Positions 14,371-23,328 of a stretch of 34,498 bases of DNA are shown here, piece by piece. How positions within the stretch are numbered: the stretch's first letter is position 1; the number at the start of each line of letters is the position of its first letter. Origin of the DNA: Longimicrobiales bacterium (GTDB lineage Bacteria > Gemmatimonadota > Gemmatimonadetes > Longimicrobiales > RSA9); assembly GCA_035764935.1 (NCBI GenBank), contig DASTYK010000050.1, forward strand, positions 1 through 34,498. The letters are read 5' to 3'. The position numbers and the translations under genes are program-made. The notes beneath the pieces were generated by a model that had not been told where the DNA came from, did no database searches, and saw only the letters and a list, made by a program, of their open reading frames with translations.

Positions 14371-15663
<1,293 letters not shown>

Positions 15664-15676
15664 GATCTCCCGTCTC

Positions 15677-17260
15677 CTATGACCCTGCGCGTTCCAGAAC
15701 GGTATCGCGGAGCTCCCGCTCGTTGTCCCGGTACGGGTAGTCAGTGTTGTGATGCAAACCCCTGCTCTCCCTGCGCAAGCGCGCCGACCGCACGACCAGC
15801 TCCGCGACCTCGAGGAGGTTGCGCGCCTCGAGGAACTCGGGGTCGCGCACGGAGCCGGCGTCCAGGCCGGCGCGCAGGGTGTCAAGGCGGCGAGCGGCTC
15901 GCCCCAGGCGCTCGTCGGTCCTGACCAGGCCGACGTCGTCCCAGAGCGACTGCCGGATGGACGCGCGCAGCGACTGCCACGCACCGCCCGGTGCCCGCCC
16001 CTCGGGCAGAGGCACCACCGGCTCACCACGGCCGCCCGTCACTCGCCCCGCCTGCGCCAGCGAAGCCGGCAGCGCCTGCGCTGCCCGGTGACTGTAAACG
16101 ACCGCTTCCAGCAGAGAATTGGATGCTAGACGATTTGCCCCATGGACGCCAGTGCAGGCCACTTCGCCGGCCGCGAAGAGCCCGCGCAGCGACGTACGAC
16201 CATCCGCATCCGTGCGGATGCCGCCGCATGCATAGTGCGCCGCGGGCACCACCGGTATCGGCTCCCGGCGGATATCGATTCCGCGCGCCGCGCACTCCTT
16301 CATGATGCCCGGGAAGCGTGCCTCGATTCGATCGCCCGCGATCGGCGAAAGGTCGAGCAGCGCGTGTGGCGCATCCGTCTCCTTCATCAACCTGTCGATC
16401 GCCCGTGCCACGATGTCGCGCGGGGCGAGCGAGCCGAGCGGATGCACCCCCTCCATCAGCGCCGCGCCCGAGGGGGTTCGCAGGATGGCGCCCTCGCCGC
16501 GCACCGCTTCCGAGATCAGGAAGGTGACGCCGTCGGGCGCGTCCAGCGCCGTCGGGTGGAACTGCATGAACTCGAGGTTGGCGACCTGGGCCCCGGCTCG
16601 GTACGCCATCGCAACGCCGTCACCTGTCGCGATGTCCGGGTTGGTCGTGTGCAGCCACGCCTGCCCCATCCCGCCGGTGGCGAGCAGCACGACCTGCGCG
16701 TCGTACCGGGTGAGCGTATCGGTATGGTGATCCAGCACGATCGCACCCGCACAGCGCGGCGGTGTGCCGCGCACCAGCAGGTCCACCGCGAGATGATCCT
16801 CGAGCAGCGTGATGCGCGGCTCGGCCGCGACGGCACCGAGCAGCGCGCGCTCGATCTCGCGGCCGGTGAGATCACCCGCGTGCAGAATGCGACGCACCGA
16901 GTGTCCGCCTTCGCGGCCGAGCGAGACCGTTTCCTGCTCCTGCGTGAAGCGCACGCCCCACTCGATGAGCTCCCGCACACGCGCGGGCCCCTCCTCGACC
17001 AGCATGCGCACGGCGCTCGTGTGACAGAGCCCCGCACCGGCGACGAAGGTGTCGCGCGCGTGCAGCTCGACCGAGTCGTCGTCGCTCCACACGGCCGCGA
17101 TGCCACCCTGCGCGTAGTTCGTGCTCGACTGCGCCCGCTGTTTCTTGGTGACCAGCACCACGTCCCCGTGCTGCGCCGCCTTCAGGGCATAGCTGAGCCC
17201 GGCGATGCCACTGCCGATGACGAGCACGTCGCACGCCTCGTGGCGCATCCGATCAGGCAT
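15677..17260 (-). CDS. nadB: L-aspartate oxidase
   Basis: NadB is a FAD enzyme that oxidises aspartate to iminoaspartate, the first step of de novo NAD synthesis. From the ATG at 17260 the protein has 527 residues. The FAD fold shows [16 protein letters not shown] at 14-29 and [10 protein letters not shown] at 48-57. Active-site residues typical of the family are seen: H235 in [10 protein letters not shown]281 in [10 protein letters not shown]342 in HYACGGI and R377 in [15 protein letters not shown]. The start is uncertain: 17260 overlaps lpxK by 8 bases, and 17248 begins just after its stop. nadA and nadC are not in the window. The C-terminal helical domain is full length, so a fumarate-reductase or succinate-dehydrogenase flavoprotein is unlikely. 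Confidence 0.94.
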
Positions 17261-18344
17261 GCGACACCGGCAGTGTCGAGAGCAGGCGATCCAGCTCCTC
17301 TGCACCATCCGTCATGACGACGTCCTGCTCGAGCAGCCACACGTCGTCCGCATTCAGCAGGCCCTGCAGCTTCACCCAGTCCTTGGCAGTCGTGACAACC
17401 GGCCTGCCGGACGCGCGCTGCTCGATCGCTGCTGCGTCCGTGCGCGTGTATGCGTGATGGTCGCGGAACGTGAGCACGTCACCGATCTGCGCCCCCGCCG
17501 CGCGTGCGCCGGCCAGGAACAGCTCGGGCTGTGCAACCGCTGCGACGAGCAGCGCCGGGCGCTCCGGCGGACCGGCCGCGTCGCGTCCGGTACCTGCCCG
17601 CGGCTCTGCACGCGCTCGCTCCACCTGGCTGCGAGCGACGTCGGGCGCTGCACCTGTCGGCCGGGTCCACCGTTCGGGGGTCATGCGAGCGAGCCATACG
17701 GGCACACCGCCCGCGATGCGCTCCACGTCTGACCGCACGGGCGCAGGGTCCAGCGGCGTTCGGTATGTCACGATCACTGCCGTGGCGCGCTTCAGTGCCG
17801 ATGGCGACTCGCGCCACGCACCGCGCGGCAGCAGCCGCGGCATCGACGTCCACGTTTCTGCCGCGACCAGCACCAGGTCGATGTCACGTGCAAGCCGCCG
17901 ATGCTGGAACCCGTCGTCGAGGATCAGCACCGTGGCACCCTCATCCGCAGCTGCCCGCGCACTCGCGACGCGATCACGGCCGACGTGAACCGGCACATCC
18001 GGGTTCCACTGCCGGTGCAGCATCGGTTCGTCCTCGGCATAGCCGCCATGCAGGAGCGCCGGACTGTGGCCCAGCATCGCGAGCCGCGCGGCGAGGAACG
18101 CCGAGAACGGCGTCTTCCCTGCACCGCCGATCGCGATGTTGCCGACACTGATGACGGGGACCGGTGCGCGCTCGACGGCGCGCATGCCGCGCGTGAACGC
18201 TGCGTTACGCAGCGTGCTCACACCCCGGAACGCGAGCTCGGCGGGAACGAGCAGCGCGCTCAGCGCACGTCCCGCAGCCCCGGCCTGCTCGCGCCACATG
18301 CGCTCTACGAACGCGCCCGCCCGCTCACTCACGCGGCTCACCAT
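17253..18344 (-). CDS. lpxK: Tetraacyldisaccharide 4'-kinase (lipid A), divergent
   Basis: LpxK phosphorylates the 4' position of the tetraacyl disaccharide to give lipid IVA, at the inner membrane. The 363-residue protein has an N-terminal amphipathic or membrane segment, Walker A GNIAIGGAGKTP at 69-79, the metal and base motif DDGFQHRRLARD at 143-154, FRDHHAYT at 293-300 and TTAKDWVKL at 318-326. Two oddities stand out. Where the family has SRGYGG followed by about 15-20 residues before DEP, this protein has only LLHGGYAEDEP (97-107). Residues about 224-263 form an Arg/Ala/Pro-rich insert. I chose the ATG at 18344; a GTG at 18350 is possible. It overlaps the DUF374 gene by about 20 bases. 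Confidence 0.88.
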   Translation of the reverse strand: MVSRVSERAGAFVERMWREQAGAAGRALSALLVPAELAFRGVSTLRNAAFTRGMRAVERAPVPVISVGNIAIGGAGKTPFSAFLAARLAMLGHSPALLHGGYAEDEPMLHRQWNPDVPVHVGRDRVASARAAADEGATVLILDDGFQHRRLARDIDLVLVAAETWTSMPRLLPRGAWRESPSALKRATAVIVTYRTPLDPAPVRSDVERIAGGVPVWLARMTPERWTRPTGAAPDVARSQVERARAEPRAGTGRDAAGPPERPALLVAAVAQPELFLAGARAAGAQIGDVLTFRDHHAYTRTDAAAIEQRASGRPVVTTAKDWVKLQGLLNADDVWLLEQDVVMTDGAEELDRLLSTLPVSHA

Positions 18345-18987
18345 GCACACCCAGCGCGCGCTCCGCGCGCTCGGTCAGTGCGTTCATCTCCGTCTCGATC
18401 TCGGCGCCCACCCGCTCGAGCTCTGCGTCGTCGGCGTCACGCGGGATGGTTCTCGGCTCACCATAGACGAGCCGCACGCGCGTGAACGGCTGCGGCACCA
18501 GGAATCGGTCCCAGCCGCCGAGCCACCAGGCACGGGTTGCCGCGGCTGCCGTCGGCAGCACGGGCACACCGCTCATCCGCGCAGCGAGCAGCGAGCCGGG
18601 CTTCAATTTCCGCCTCGGCCCGCGCGGGCCGTCCGGCGTCACCGCGAGCGACTGTCCGTCGCGCAGCACCCGCACCATGGAACGCAGGGCACCCGACCCA
18701 CCGCGCGAGCTCGAGCCGCGCAGCACGGTGTATCCCCAGCGCTGCACCACCCGGGCAATGTACTCACCGTCCTTCGACTGGCTGATCAGGGTGGCGAGTC
18801 CTGCACCGCGCTGACGGAATGCGAACACGAGCAGGTGGCCGTGCCAGCACAGCCCGAGAAGCGGCTTGCCGTTGATGCGCAGTCCGTGCTCCGGCTCGTT
18901 CTCCGTCTCGAAGCGCACGCTCGCCATGAGCGAGCGGATCAGGGCATCGCCGGCAAAGCCGGCGAGCGCGTAGCGTGGCTCACTCAT
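18325..18987 (-). CDS. DUF374 lysophospholipid acyltransferase-like protein, probable lipid A acyltransferase
   Basis: This 220-residue protein is a DUF374 member of the lysophospholipid acyltransferase superfamily. Visible family blocks are WHGHLL at 48-53, where the family usually holds its catalytic His, ISQSKDGEYIARVV at 68-81, RGSSSRGG at 90-97 and TPDGPRGP at 117-124. DUF374 proteins include the LpxJ type of late lipid A acyltransferase known from epsilonproteobacteria. Its position between lpxB and lpxK, overlapping lpxB by 4 bases (ATGA) and lpxK by about 20, strongly suggests that it adds a secondary acyl chain to lipid A. I see no LpxL/LpxM-type gene in the window. A role in phospholipid synthesis is the alternative. 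Confidence 0.85.
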   Translation of the reverse strand: MSEPRYALAGFAGDALIRSLMASVRFETENEPEHGLRINGKPLLGLCWHGHLLVFAFRQRGAGLATLISQSKDGEYIARVVQRWGYTVLRGSSSRGGSGALRSMVRVLRDGQSLAVTPDGPRGPRRKLKPGSLLAARMSGVPVLPTAAAATRAWWLGGWDRFLVPQPFTRVRLVYGEPRTIPRDADDAELERVGAEIETEMNALTERAERALGVHGEPRE

Positions 18988-20117
18988 CGCTGCTCGATCA
19001 GCTCGCGGGCGAGTGCAGCGACCTGCGTCGCGGCATCCCCTGCACCGGGCGGCGGCTGCAGCGCCGTGCGCACCCTGGCGAGTCCCGCGAGCGTGCGCGT
19101 GCGGGTGGGGCCGTCGGCGAGCAGCGGCAGCAGCGCGTCCGCGAGTGCCGCGGGCGTCGCCTGGTCCTGGATGAACTCCGGGGCAAGGCGCTCACCCGCC
19201 ACCAGGTTCACGAGTCCGACGTGCTCCACCTCGACGACGCGCCGCGCGATTGCATAGGACAGCGGGTGCATCCGGTACGCGATGACCATCGGCGTGCCGG
19301 CGACCGCCGCCTGCAGCGTGGTCGTTCCGGACTTGACGAGCGCGGCCGATGCATGCTGCAGCAGTGCCTGGTTGTCACGTGTGCGGGGCCAGGTCGCCGT
19401 GGCGTACAGCGGTGCGGGTACTGCGTCGCCCGCGGCGATCACCGGCTGCACATCCGGCCGCGCGGCGCGGACCCGCTCAGCGGCCGCTTCGAAGAGCGCG
19501 AGGTGGCGTCGCACCTCCTGCGCGCGTGAGCCGGGAAACAGGGCCAGGATCGGTCGCCCGGGATCGATGCCCAGCTGCGCGCACAGCGCAGCGCGTGCGG
19601 TCGCTTCGGCCCGTCGGTCGAGCAGCGGGTGGCCGACGAAGAGCGCACGCGTGCCCGCTGCCTCGAAGAGCTGCTGCTCGAATGGAAGGATGACCGCAAG
19701 TCGGTCGGACGTCTCGGCAAGCTGGCGCACCCGGCTGCTGTGCCACGCCCAGACCTGCGGCGCAATGTAGTACAGCACCGGGATGCCGCGCTCCTTCGCC
19801 ATGCGTGCGAGTCGCATGTTGAAGCCGGGATAGTCGATGGGGATGACCAGGTCGGGCGGTCGGGCATCCAGCTCGCGACGCGTGTCGCGCAGCAGTCGCA
19901 CGAAGAATGGCAGGTGACGCGCGACCTCGGCAAAGCCCATGACCGCGAGGTCGTCGACGTGCGCCCGCAGACTGACGCCGGCACCCTGCATGAGCGAGCC
20001 GCCGAAGCCGTACAGCTCTGCATCGGGCCATTGCTCGCGCAGTGCGCGGGCAACACCGGAACCATGCAGGTCGCCCGACGGCTCACCCGCCGAGATCAGG
20101 ATGCGGGGTGCTGCCAA
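18984..20117 (-). CDS. lpxB: Lipid-A-disaccharide synthase
   Basis: LpxB joins UDP-diacyl-glucosamine with lipid X to make the lipid A disaccharide, working as a peripheral inner-membrane glycosyltransferase. The 377-residue protein starts ILISAGEPSGDLHGSGVARAL (near residue 6), the family hallmark. It also shows IDYPGFNMRLA, YYIAPQVWAWHSSRVRQLA, VGHPLLD, ALFPGSRAQEVRRHLALF and the C-terminal SGTTTLQAAVAGTPMVIAYR. The start is a TTG at 20117, only 7 bases after the stop of a 44-residue gene and without a clear ribosome site. Upstream in frame is a stop, so no better start exists. Coupling to the small gene is likely. Confidence 0.95.
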   Translation of the reverse strand: MAAPRILISAGEPSGDLHGSGVARALREQWPDAELYGFGGSLMQGAGVSLRAHVDDLAVMGFAEVARHLPFFVRLLRDTRRELDARPPDLVIPIDYPGFNMRLARMAKERGIPVLYYIAPQVWAWHSSRVRQLAETSDRLAVILPFEQQLFEAAGTRALFVGHPLLDRRAEATARAALCAQLGIDPGRPILALFPGSRAQEVRRHLALFEAAAERVRAARPDVQPVIAAGDAVPAPLYATATWPRTRDNQALLQHASAALVKSGTTTLQAAVAGTPMVIAYRMHPLSYAIARRVVEVEHVGLVNLVAGERLAPEFIQDQATPAALADALLPLLADGPTRTRTLAGLARVRTALQPPPGAGDAATQVAALARELIEQR

Positions 20118-20124
20118 GGCGTGC

Positions 20125-20259
20125 TCAGGTGTAGCGGCTCAGGTACCAGATCATGTACAGCACGAGCAGAAATCCAAGCACGAGCTTCCACGTCTTCGGC
20201 CTCCCTTTCGGTCCGCCGAAGCCGTCCCGTCGCTCACGCCGTCTCTCGATCAGTGACAT
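20125..20259 (-). CDS. Small basic membrane peptide (44 residues) between the Gfo/Idh gene and lpxB
   Basis: An ATG at 20259 opens a 44-codon frame ending TGA at 20125. Residues 1-25 are strongly basic (MSLIERRRERRDG, then GPKGRPKTWK). Residues about 26-40 form a hydrophobic helix, LVLGFLLVLYMIWYL, and the peptide ends SRYT. The layout matches a small single-pass inner-membrane protein with the N-terminus in the cytoplasm. It overlaps the end of the oxidoreductase gene by 26 bases and ends 7 bases before the lpxB TTG. Without it there would be a 116-base gap in an otherwise tightly packed operon. No homologue is recognised; the function is unknown. A weak GGA 5-7 bases upstream is the only ribosome-site hint. 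Confidence 0.6.
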   Translation of the reverse strand: MSLIERRRERRDGFGGPKGRPKTWKLVLGFLLVLYMIWYLSRYT

Positions 20260-21262
20260 GGGTCCGCATCCGTTCTACGATGTCCAGTGCGACCGCGAGC
20301 GCGCGCCTTCCATCTTCGCCGCTCACCGCCACCGCCTCCTCCCCGCGCACCGCCGCCAGGAAGCTGGCCAGCTCGGGGCGCAGCGGCTCGACGCCGTCGC
20401 CCTCCAGCGGGATGCGCTCGACGATCTCGAGCAGTCCTGCGGCCATGGGCAGGCCACCACTGCTGCCGTCGTCCGTACCGGCCGCGAGCGCGGCCATGCG
20501 CGACTCGACGTCGATCCCGGGACGCAGCCGCAGAAACTCACCGGTACCCGCGGCAAGGTCCAGGCTGATGTAGCCGCTCCGCTGGAAGAAGCGGATCTTG
20601 CGCTCACGCTTGATCGACACGCGGCTCGCCGTCAGGTTGGCGACGCCGCCGCCCTCGAACTCGAGGCGCGCGTTCGCGATGTCCGGGCTGCGCGTCAGCA
20701 CGGGCACACCTACCGCAGCGAGCGAGACGACCGGCCGCTTCATGATGCTGAGCACCAGGTCGAGGTCGTGGATCATCAGGTCGAGCACGACCGCGACGTC
20801 GGTGCCCCGTGGGTTGAACGGTGCGAGCCGGTGCGACTCGACGAACAGCGGGTCGTCGAGCCACGGCTCACACGCGCGTACCGCGCCGTTGAAGCGTTCG
20901 ACATGCCCGATCTGCACGATCGCTTCCGCACCCGCTGCAGCCGCGAGGATCCGGTCCGCCGCATCGATCGAGGGCGCAATCGGCTTCTCGATCAGCACGT
21001 GCACACCCCGCGTCAGTGCCTCCAGCGCCGCACGCTCGTGCGCCTGCGTCGGGACCGCGATCACGCATGCGTCGACACGGTCGAGCAGCTCACCCGCATC
21101 CGCGAACGTCGGCACGCTCAGCTTCTCTCCTACCTCCGCGAGCCGCTCCGGATTGCTGTCGTGCACACCGACCAGGTCGCTTCCCTCCAGCTCGCGCAGG
21201 ATGCGCGCGTGATGGAAGCCCAGCGCACCGACCCCGATGACCCCGGTGCGGACCGCGCTCAT
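20234..21262 (-). CDS. Gfo/Idh/MocA-family oxidoreductase, GnnA-like candidate
   Basis: This 342-residue NAD(P)-dependent oxidoreductase has an N-terminal Rossmann fold (TGVIGVGALGFHHARIL, residues 6-22), the EKP motif at 92-94, and a conserved acid/His pair in DLMIHDLDLV at 161-170. It lies between lpxA and lpxB, overlapping lpxA as ATGA. In Acidithiobacillus ferrooxidans the genes between lpxA and lpxB include gnnA, a member of this family that oxidises UDP-GlcNAc at C3, so that GnnB can install an amine for amide-linked lipid A. That context makes a UDP-GlcNAc 3-dehydrogenase the best guess. However, no GnnB aminotransferase is present here, so the product could also be another sugar-nucleotide or envelope metabolite. 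The first ATG at 21262 is clear; longer readings run into lpxA. Confidence 0.85.
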   Translation of the reverse strand: MSAVRTGVIGVGALGFHHARILRELEGSDLVGVHDSNPERLAEVGEKLSVPTFADAGELLDRVDACVIAVPTQAHERAALEALTRGVHVLIEKPIAPSIDAADRILAAAAGAEAIVQIGHVERFNGAVRACEPWLDDPLFVESHRLAPFNPRGTDVAVVLDLMIHDLDLVLSIMKRPVVSLAAVGVPVLTRSPDIANARLEFEGGGVANLTASRVSIKRERKIRFFQRSGYISLDLAAGTGEFLRLRPGIDVESRMAALAAGTDDGSSGGLPMAAGLLEIVERIPLEGDGVEPLRPELASFLAAVRGEEAVAVSGEDGRRALAVALDIVERMRTHVTDRETA

Positions 21263-22033: not shown

Positions 22034-22040
22034 TCCCCCT
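22034..22040 (-). promoter_or_regulatory. Purine-rich ribosome site supporting the TTG start of lpxA
   Basis: AGGGGGA on the minus strand overlaps the TAG stop of lpxC-fabZ and lies 4 bases before the TTG at 22029. The arrangement fits re-initiation after the upstream stop. Confidence 0.55.
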
Positions 22041-23328
22041 ACCGATCGACGATGCGTGCCATCATCTCGGCCTCGACGGCGAGCTTGCCGTCCACGAACC
22101 CTTCGCCACGCATCTTGCACACGTGACGGCGCATGGACAGCACCTCGACCTCGAAGCGGATCTGGTCGCCCGGAGTGATGGGACGGCGCCACTTCACGTT
22201 GTCGAGGGACATGAAGTACACGATCTTCTCCTCGACGTCCGGGATCGACCCCATCATCAGCAGTCCGCCGACCTGCGCCATCGCCTCGATAATGAGGACG
22301 CCCGGCATCACCGGGTGCCCCGGGTAGTGCCCCTGGAAGAATGGCTCGTTGATCGTGACGTTCTTGATCCCGACGATGCGGCGCTCCGACTCGTACTCGA
22401 TGATCCGGTCGACGAGCAGCATCGGGTAGCGGTGTGGCAGGTGCTGCATGATGCGGTTGATGTCCACGATGCCCTGCACCGCCGGGCTGCGACGCACCGA
22501 CTCGGCGATCGCGCGCGCCAGCTCCAGGTTGCCGGCGTGACTCGGCCGGTCCGCGATCACGTGTGCGTGCAGCCGCCCGCCCAGCAGCGCCAGGTCGCCG
22601 ATGATGTCACCCACCTTGTGGCGCACGAACTCGTCGTCCCAGCGCAGCTCGCCCTGCTCCAGCCCCTCGTCATTGAGCACGACGGCGTTATCGAGCGTGA
22701 CACCCTGTGCAAGCCCGCGCGCACGCAGTGCTTCAGCCTCGTTCATGAAGCCGAACGTGCGGGCAGCGCTCAGCTCCGCGCGAAAGGCGTCGGGGCTCAC
22801 GTCCCAGGAGCCGAACTGGCGGCGTATCAGCGGGTGGTCGAACTCGATGGTCGTCGAGATGCGCAGGTGCTCGGCCGGCAGCGCGGAGTAGCTCGGGCTG
22901 CCCCGCTCCCCGATGGACACCGGCGCGTTCAGCCGGATCACGTGGGGTGGCACGCCCTGCGCATTCAGCCCCGCCGTTTCGAGCGCCTCGAAGAACGGCT
23001 GGAAGCTGCCGTCGAGGATCGGGATCTCGGGGCCGTCGATCTCGATGATGATGTTGTCGATGCCGAGTGCGCTCACGGCCGCGAGCACGTGCTCGATGGT
23101 GTGCACGCGCACGTCGCCCTGGGCGAGCGTTGTGCCACGGTCGGTCGACGCCACGTGCTGGAGCCGCGCCTGCAGCTCCGGCCGGCCGTCCAGGTCCACA
23201 CGCCGGAACCGTATGCCTGCGTTCGCCTCCGCCGGCAGAAATGTCAGGCGGGCGGTGCTGCCCGTGTGCAGGCCCACGCCCTCGAGTGTCGCTTCTCCGC
23301 CGATCGTCTGCTGCTCCGGCGCTGTCAT
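22039..23328 (-). CDS. lpxC/fabZ: Bifunctional UDP-3-O-acyl-N-acetylglucosamine deacetylase / 3-hydroxyacyl-ACP dehydratase (LpxC-FabZ fusion)
   Basis: One 429-residue frame carries two enzymes. Residues about 5-282 are LpxC, the zinc deacetylase that commits the cell to lipid A synthesis. Zinc ligands are H80 (HTIEHVLAA), H237 and D241 (HKVGDIIGDLALLG), with E79 and H264 (RPSHAGN) as catalytic residues. Residues about 287-429 are FabZ, which dehydrates 3-hydroxyacyl-ACP in fatty-acid elongation. Its HLPHRYPMLLVDRI and GHYPGHPVMPGVLIIEAMAQ include the active-site pair H334 and E348. The two enzymes compete for, or act just after, the same 3-hydroxyacyl pool, so fusion could balance membrane lipid and lipid A. 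Such fusions are known from Bacteroidota. The ATG overlaps the lpxD stop as ATGA. Confidence 0.97.
   Translation of the reverse strand: MTAPEQQTIGGEATLEGVGLHTGSTARLTFLPAEANAGIRFRRVDLDGRPELQARLQHVASTDRGTTLAQGDVRVHTIEHVLAAVSALGIDNIIIEIDGPEIPILDGSFQPFFEALETAGLNAQGVPPHVIRLNAPVSIGERGSPSYSALPAEHLRISTTIEFDHPLIRRQFGSWDVSPDAFRAELSAARTFGFMNEAEALRARGLAQGVTLDNAVVLNDEGLEQGELRWDDEFVRHKVGDIIGDLALLGGRLHAHVIADRPSHAGNLELARAIAESVRRSPAVQGIVDINRIMQHLPHRYPMLLVDRIIEYESERRIVGIKNVTINEPFFQGHYPGHPVMPGVLIIEAMAQVGGLLMMGSIPDVEEKIVYFMSLDNVKWRRPITPGDQIRFEVEVLSMRRHVCKMRGEGFVDGKLAVEAEMMARIVDR

Follow-up and report, generated by a model that had tools for sequence, protein, structure and literature searches.

Does the short open reading frame that sits just ahead of lpxB in the genome of a Longimicrobiales bacterium encode a protein and, if it does, is that protein a dedicated partner of one of the enzymes encoded around it? 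The frame lies within the window, by which we mean the whole 34,498-nucleotide stretch of DNA that was analysed, at a locus with the gene order lpxD-lpxC/fabZ-lpxA-oxidoreductase-lpxB-DUF374-lpxK, where it is placed between the oxidoreductase gene and lpxB. A preliminary description of this DNA had proposed that its product could anchor or regulate LpxB, LpxK or the oxidoreductase. The features of the locus that bear on these questions are as follows.

20259..20125, minus strand: small membrane protein gene, 44 codons plus stop (open reading frame; orthologues at the equivalent locus; purifying selection)
20194..20259, minus strand: codons 1-22, with the start MSL(I/L) and a putative basic cytoplasmic tail containing RRxR(R/K) (alignments; charge)
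20131..20193, minus strand: codons 23-43, hydrophobic helix with the end IWYL-S-R-Y (hydropathy; AlphaFold2 helix)
20234..20259, minus strand: 26-base overlap of the first codons of the peptide with the end of the oxidoreductase gene (ORF coordinates)
18984..20117, minus strand: lpxB (PF02684, E=4e-93; TIGR00215), with a TTG start 7 bases past the peptide stop
20234..21262, minus strand: Gfo/Idh/MocA oxidoreductase (PF01408; NF040723), nearest family UDP-GlcNAc 3-dehydrogenase

The frame ahead of lpxB and its conservation

In the ORF list of the window the frame runs on the minus strand from an ATG at 20259 to a stop at 20127-20125, and its 44-residue product is MSLIERRRERRDGFGGPKGRPKTWKLVLGFLLVLYMIWYLSRYT. 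The preliminary description had its anatomy right. The ORF, its conservation, its charge and its hydropathy agree with an unlisted 44-residue frame that has a basic N-terminus and one hydrophobic helix; the frame occupies the sole sizeable gap of the lpx cluster, the interval from the oxidoreductase stop to lpxB; and it ends 7 bases before the lpxB TTG (spacer 20124-20118, TTG at 20117), ahead of which there is no purine-rich ribosome site. At 135 nt the frame exceeds the length cut-offs commonly used by gene callers. However, the surrounding 14 kb of GC-rich DNA holds 115 ORFs of at least 40 residues and, because ORFs of this size are so common here, an open frame by itself is no evidence of a gene.

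A blind whole-genome search of 61 genomes with the peptide alone as query led to the equivalent locus upstream of lpxB in 28 other genomes, including one (L031) in which the peptide fell below the blast cut-off and was recovered by profile. At these loci and at that of the window the neighbours are as expected and the peptide is directly upstream of lpxB; the match at L027 is to an unrelated place. The search was extended with a profile (A1) to 298 genomes of the phylum, and about 100 distinct orthologues were collected. The comparison of synonymous and non-synonymous change at the same locus in relatives, which the preliminary description had suggested as a check, gave a peptide pN/pS mostly of 0.07-0.38 within groups of relatives (0.15-0.46 for lpxB of those genomes), and in nearly all groups the two alternative frames of the same DNA give values above 1. 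The low values persist when the codons overlapping the oxidoreductase gene are excluded, and selection is also seen from codon 10 onwards. Pairwise pN/pS is close to saturation in wider groups; in the family of the window itself the peptide value is 0.63, with a divergence too great for a sharp estimate. Of 103 distinct peptide starts, 59 have an SD-like core ahead of them, compared with 15.5 expected.

These results bear on the possibility that the frame is open by chance and yields no protein, as its shortness and the abundance of random ORFs of similar size in this DNA might suggest. The frame is more than chance because it is conserved, the equivalent locus being found by blind search and pN/pS lying well below 1. 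The recovery of the locus, the roughly 100 orthologues and purifying selection that extends to genus g87, described below, reduce a chance origin to a negligible probability. On the strength of its conservation we conclude that the frame is a real protein gene, and we infer that it is translated.

The orthologues are 41-53 residues long (median 44), and their alignments have in common the start MSL(I/L), the motif RRxR(R/K), and a helix that opens with an invariant Leu and closes with IWYL-type residues. In 103 peptides the best 15-residue hydropathy averages 2.94, with a minimum of 2.25, and the mean net charge is +7.0 on the N-terminal side of the helix versus +0.7 on the C-terminal side, the N-terminal side being the more positive in all 103. 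AlphaFold2, run on the single sequence, predicts a helix at residues 22-43 (block pLDDT 81-94) and a short helix at 5-12 at low confidence. Under the positive-inside rule, the more basic flank of a membrane helix faces the cytoplasm and, because of the charge difference, the peptide would have its N-terminus inside and its C-terminus outside. It is therefore predicted to be a bitopic inner-membrane protein that exposes a few residues to the periplasm. Its size (about 50 residues or shorter), its single helix and its conserved coding sequence, seen in pN/pS and in the orthologues, make it a predicted member of the descriptive class of bacterial small membrane proteins.

Probable coupling to lpxB

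The peptide is tightly packed between its neighbours. Its start overlaps or abuts the oxidoreductase gene in 71 of the 76 loci that have one, and the lpxB start lies a median of 6 nt past the peptide stop, often overlapping it (-4, -8); lpxB starts were set by rule, and individual distances are approximate. In the window, lpxB has no alternative in-frame start upstream (open frame of 384 residues versus a protein of 377). An SD core is found before only 9 of 88 lpxB starts, a much lower frequency than for the peptide starts. The coupling of the frame to lpxB claimed in the preliminary description fits the close stop-start spacing, which is widespread among species, and in many of them ribosomes that translate the peptide probably move on to the lpxB start. 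However, the missing SD of lpxB is not specific to such coupling, because lpxB genes that have no peptide ahead of them mostly have no SD core either (3 of 12 have one).

The short spacing and the rarity of SD cores at lpxB starts could also mean that the peptide is a translated leader that serves only to supply lpxB with ribosomes. Such a leader would not account for selection at the amino-acid level along the peptide, which is also seen from codon 10 on, nor for its persistence where lpxB is gone, and the general scarcity of SD cores at peptide-less lpxB genes also counts against it. We consider this explanation very improbable.

Distribution and separation from neighbouring genes

The peptide looks ancestral to the sampled Gemmatimonadota, most of which appear to retain it, because the most distant family and outgroup, f11, carries it between the oxidoreductase gene and lpxB. 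When presence or absence of the peptide is mapped on a tree of 117 LpxB sequences, five changes are required: a single loss in the clade of families f4, f5 and f6 (support 99), losses in genera g14 and g46 and in genome G013, and a change in family f8. Families f4, f5 and f6 and genera g14 and g46 have the lpx cluster and no peptide, and a genome-wide search of peptide-less genomes with a broader profile gave no credible match to a relocated copy. In one of these genomes (G273), a frame starting MSLVRVRPD overlaps the oxidoreductase end at the expected peptide start and has no helix (L051, 1437-1535); it is possibly a remnant of a lost peptide gene. No peptide was found in the LpxB loci fetched from other phyla, and there was no credible match in 16 whole genomes reached via LpxB loci, nearly all of them from other phyla.

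In family f8 (G203, G133) the gene order is lpxD-lpxC/fabZ-lpxA-peptide-DUF374-lpxK-nadB, and lpxB is on another contig. By sequence the two f8 peptides match only weakly (E about 1e-4), and their identification leans on position too. The LpxB encoded on the separate contig (L248, L249) is a distant one, with a branch of 1.44 and 35-40% identity, which looks like a replacement of the original.

Another arrangement is found in genus g87 of family f7. LpxB is absent genome-wide from all six genomes (PF02684, with G109 as positive control) and LpxK from the three tested. The lpx genes are gone on both sides of the peptide; fabZ and the peptide are contiguous in 6/6, the five genomes whose contigs reach nadB have the order fabZ-peptide-nadB, and bamA-ompH is upstream wherever the contig extends that far. 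All six genomes have an intact peptide, with a pooled pN/pS of 0.27 and, over the three codon positions, 16/7/34 variable columns (p=4e-5). G147 and G201 yielded no LpxC, and G152 has a C-terminal fragment of LpxC beside a run of N. These are MAG-like assemblies, 71-90% complete, and all six agree. The genus is apparently a diderm lineage without lipid A. A search for LptD with PF04453 gave no match even in G000 and is hence uninformative on LPS export. As side observations, bamA and ompH are kept in the cluster in g87 though LpxB is absent (L125, L132, L133, L240, L241, L244), and FabZ is free-standing in G147 and G201; in the window (22039-23328) a single 429-residue fusion protein combines LpxC with FabZ (PF03331 + PF07977).

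These distributions separate the peptide from its neighbours in turn. The oxidoreductase is missing at 22 loci of family f2 that are ordered lpxA-peptide-lpxB. Co-occurrence thus fails and a dedicated, GnnA-like oxidoreductase partner is ruled out, so the proposed role as anchor or regulator of that enzyme is not supported. Nor is the one proposed for LpxK, given that the peptide is kept in the three g87 genomes tested that have no LpxK. DUF374 is a weak candidate, as six loci have lpxK right after lpxB with no DUF374 match between them. NadB was considered as a partner on account of the g87 order and the absence of nadB from the f4, f5 and f6 locus, and was rejected on 39 extended loci: many carriers (g12, g17 and g25) have no nadB at the locus, and the peptide-less g14 and G013 have it there. 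The gene past lpxK varies by lineage (L252-L291): f4, f5 and f6 have gdh and no nadB there, many others have nadB and no gdh, g12 and g25 have neither, and the window has both (14371-17308).

The oxidoreductase gene between lpxA and lpxB (window 20234-21262) encodes a GnnA-like putative UDP-GlcNAc 3-dehydrogenase, which suggests an amide-linked (GlcNAc3N) lipid A. Its product scores 191 bits against NF040723, below the 450-bit cut-off of that family, and its best PDB chain is 7bvj.

The peptide could be a dedicated LpxB subunit, a membrane anchor or activator, with a secondary function that explains its retention in lipid-A-less genomes. In nearly all carriers, and also in the deep outgroup f11, it lies next to lpxB on the upstream side, and start and stop are close at an lpxB start that has no SD of its own. 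However, the peptide is under selection in six genomes without LpxB, LpxB occurs without the peptide in f4, f5, f6, g14 and g46, and the two are separated in f8. An exclusive LpxB partner is ruled out by these six genomes and by f8. E. coli LpxB moreover has a membrane patch of its own, with loop residues 62-76, that is needed in vivo (PMC5785501). The hydrophobicity of this loop is equal in LpxB proteins with and without the peptide (-0.03 vs -0.09), so that an extra anchor is not obviously needed; the idea that the peptide compensates for a weaker membrane patch was rejected on the same evidence. Because of the double dissociation and the unchanged loop, we regard a dedicated LpxB role as unlikely, and the anchor or regulator of LpxB foreseen in the preliminary description is not borne out.

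Alternatively, the peptide could be an accessory on the FabZ/LpxA side, recruiting acyl-ACP enzymes to the membrane for a fatty-acid or lipid precursor step. fabZ is directly upstream in 6/6 g87 genomes, where it is the sole upstream neighbour kept, and fabZ-lpxA is upstream in nearly every other carrier. The exception is f11, in which the fetched DNA upstream of the oxidoreductase gene has no lpxA or fabZ match, and f4 and f5 have fabZ-lpxA although the peptide is absent. Such an accessory seems quite improbable.

A candidate envelope role and its known parallels

Because relatives that have apparently abandoned lipid A synthesis still carry the peptide, a general envelope role is probable, rather than one for LpxB alone. 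Our preferred reading, which we hold with some confidence, is that the peptide is a Gemmatimonadota-specific envelope microprotein that modulates or stabilizes a larger inner-membrane component independently of lipid A. It would be encoded in an envelope operon just ahead of lpxB and have a job of its own, not tied to LpxB or lipid A. Its helix would most likely bind a larger envelope component in the inner membrane, one whose gene lies elsewhere and which occurs both in the presence and in the absence of lipid A, and its basic tail, on the cytoplasmic face, could act as a stabilizer or activity modulator. The partner and mechanism in this proposal are conjectural, and the dissociation from each neighbour is observed. 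Counting against it, the ancestral adjacency to lpxB, found even in f11, and the tight start-stop spacing would suit a role connected with LpxB and later put to another use.

It is also conceivable, if rather doubtful, that the microprotein is a phylum-wide new regulator or subunit of inner-membrane envelope machinery, such as that for OM assembly or for phospholipid or lipid A traffic. If so, it was important enough to stay put while g87 discarded the surrounding lipid A genes. The gene represents a protein family without a name, from a diderm phylum that has been little studied. The lineages form a natural experiment, with lipid A genes without the peptide in some and the peptide without lipid A genes in one, and the role of the peptide is therefore separable from LpxB by direct test.

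Searches for relatives gave no significant match in Pfam or NCBIfam (23 members), in PHROGs (three members) or in the PDB (profile). The best Pfam value, 0.0017 for MgtC with two members, reflects low-complexity hydrophobic sequence and falls far short of assigning a family. The family models of MgtR and KdpF were not matched (best E values of 0.1 and 0.62, respectively, from one or two of 23 members), and no AcrZ family was among the matches listed at E<=1. The literature yielded no account of a small protein encoded next to lpxB, nor of lpxB in Gemmatimonadota.

Of the known systems, GnnA, a UDP-GlcNAc 3-dehydrogenase, resembles the neighbouring oxidoreductase (NF040723, 7bvj) and is no relative of the peptide. 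The membrane loop of LpxB offers a likeness in its basic and hydrophobic membrane-association surface, there of a GT-B enzyme (PMC5785501), but it belongs to LpxB itself, whereas the peptide is a separate gene product. KdpF and MgtR are small single-pass membrane proteins that regulate larger membrane processes. More generally, such regulation is described for characterised bacterial small membrane proteins (PMC11539335), and our preferred reading draws on this analogy. Although the peptide has no significant sequence relation to AcrZ, KdpF or MgtR and is encoded in an lpx operon, it resembles all three in its length of under about 50 residues, its one helix and its lack of a catalytic motif.
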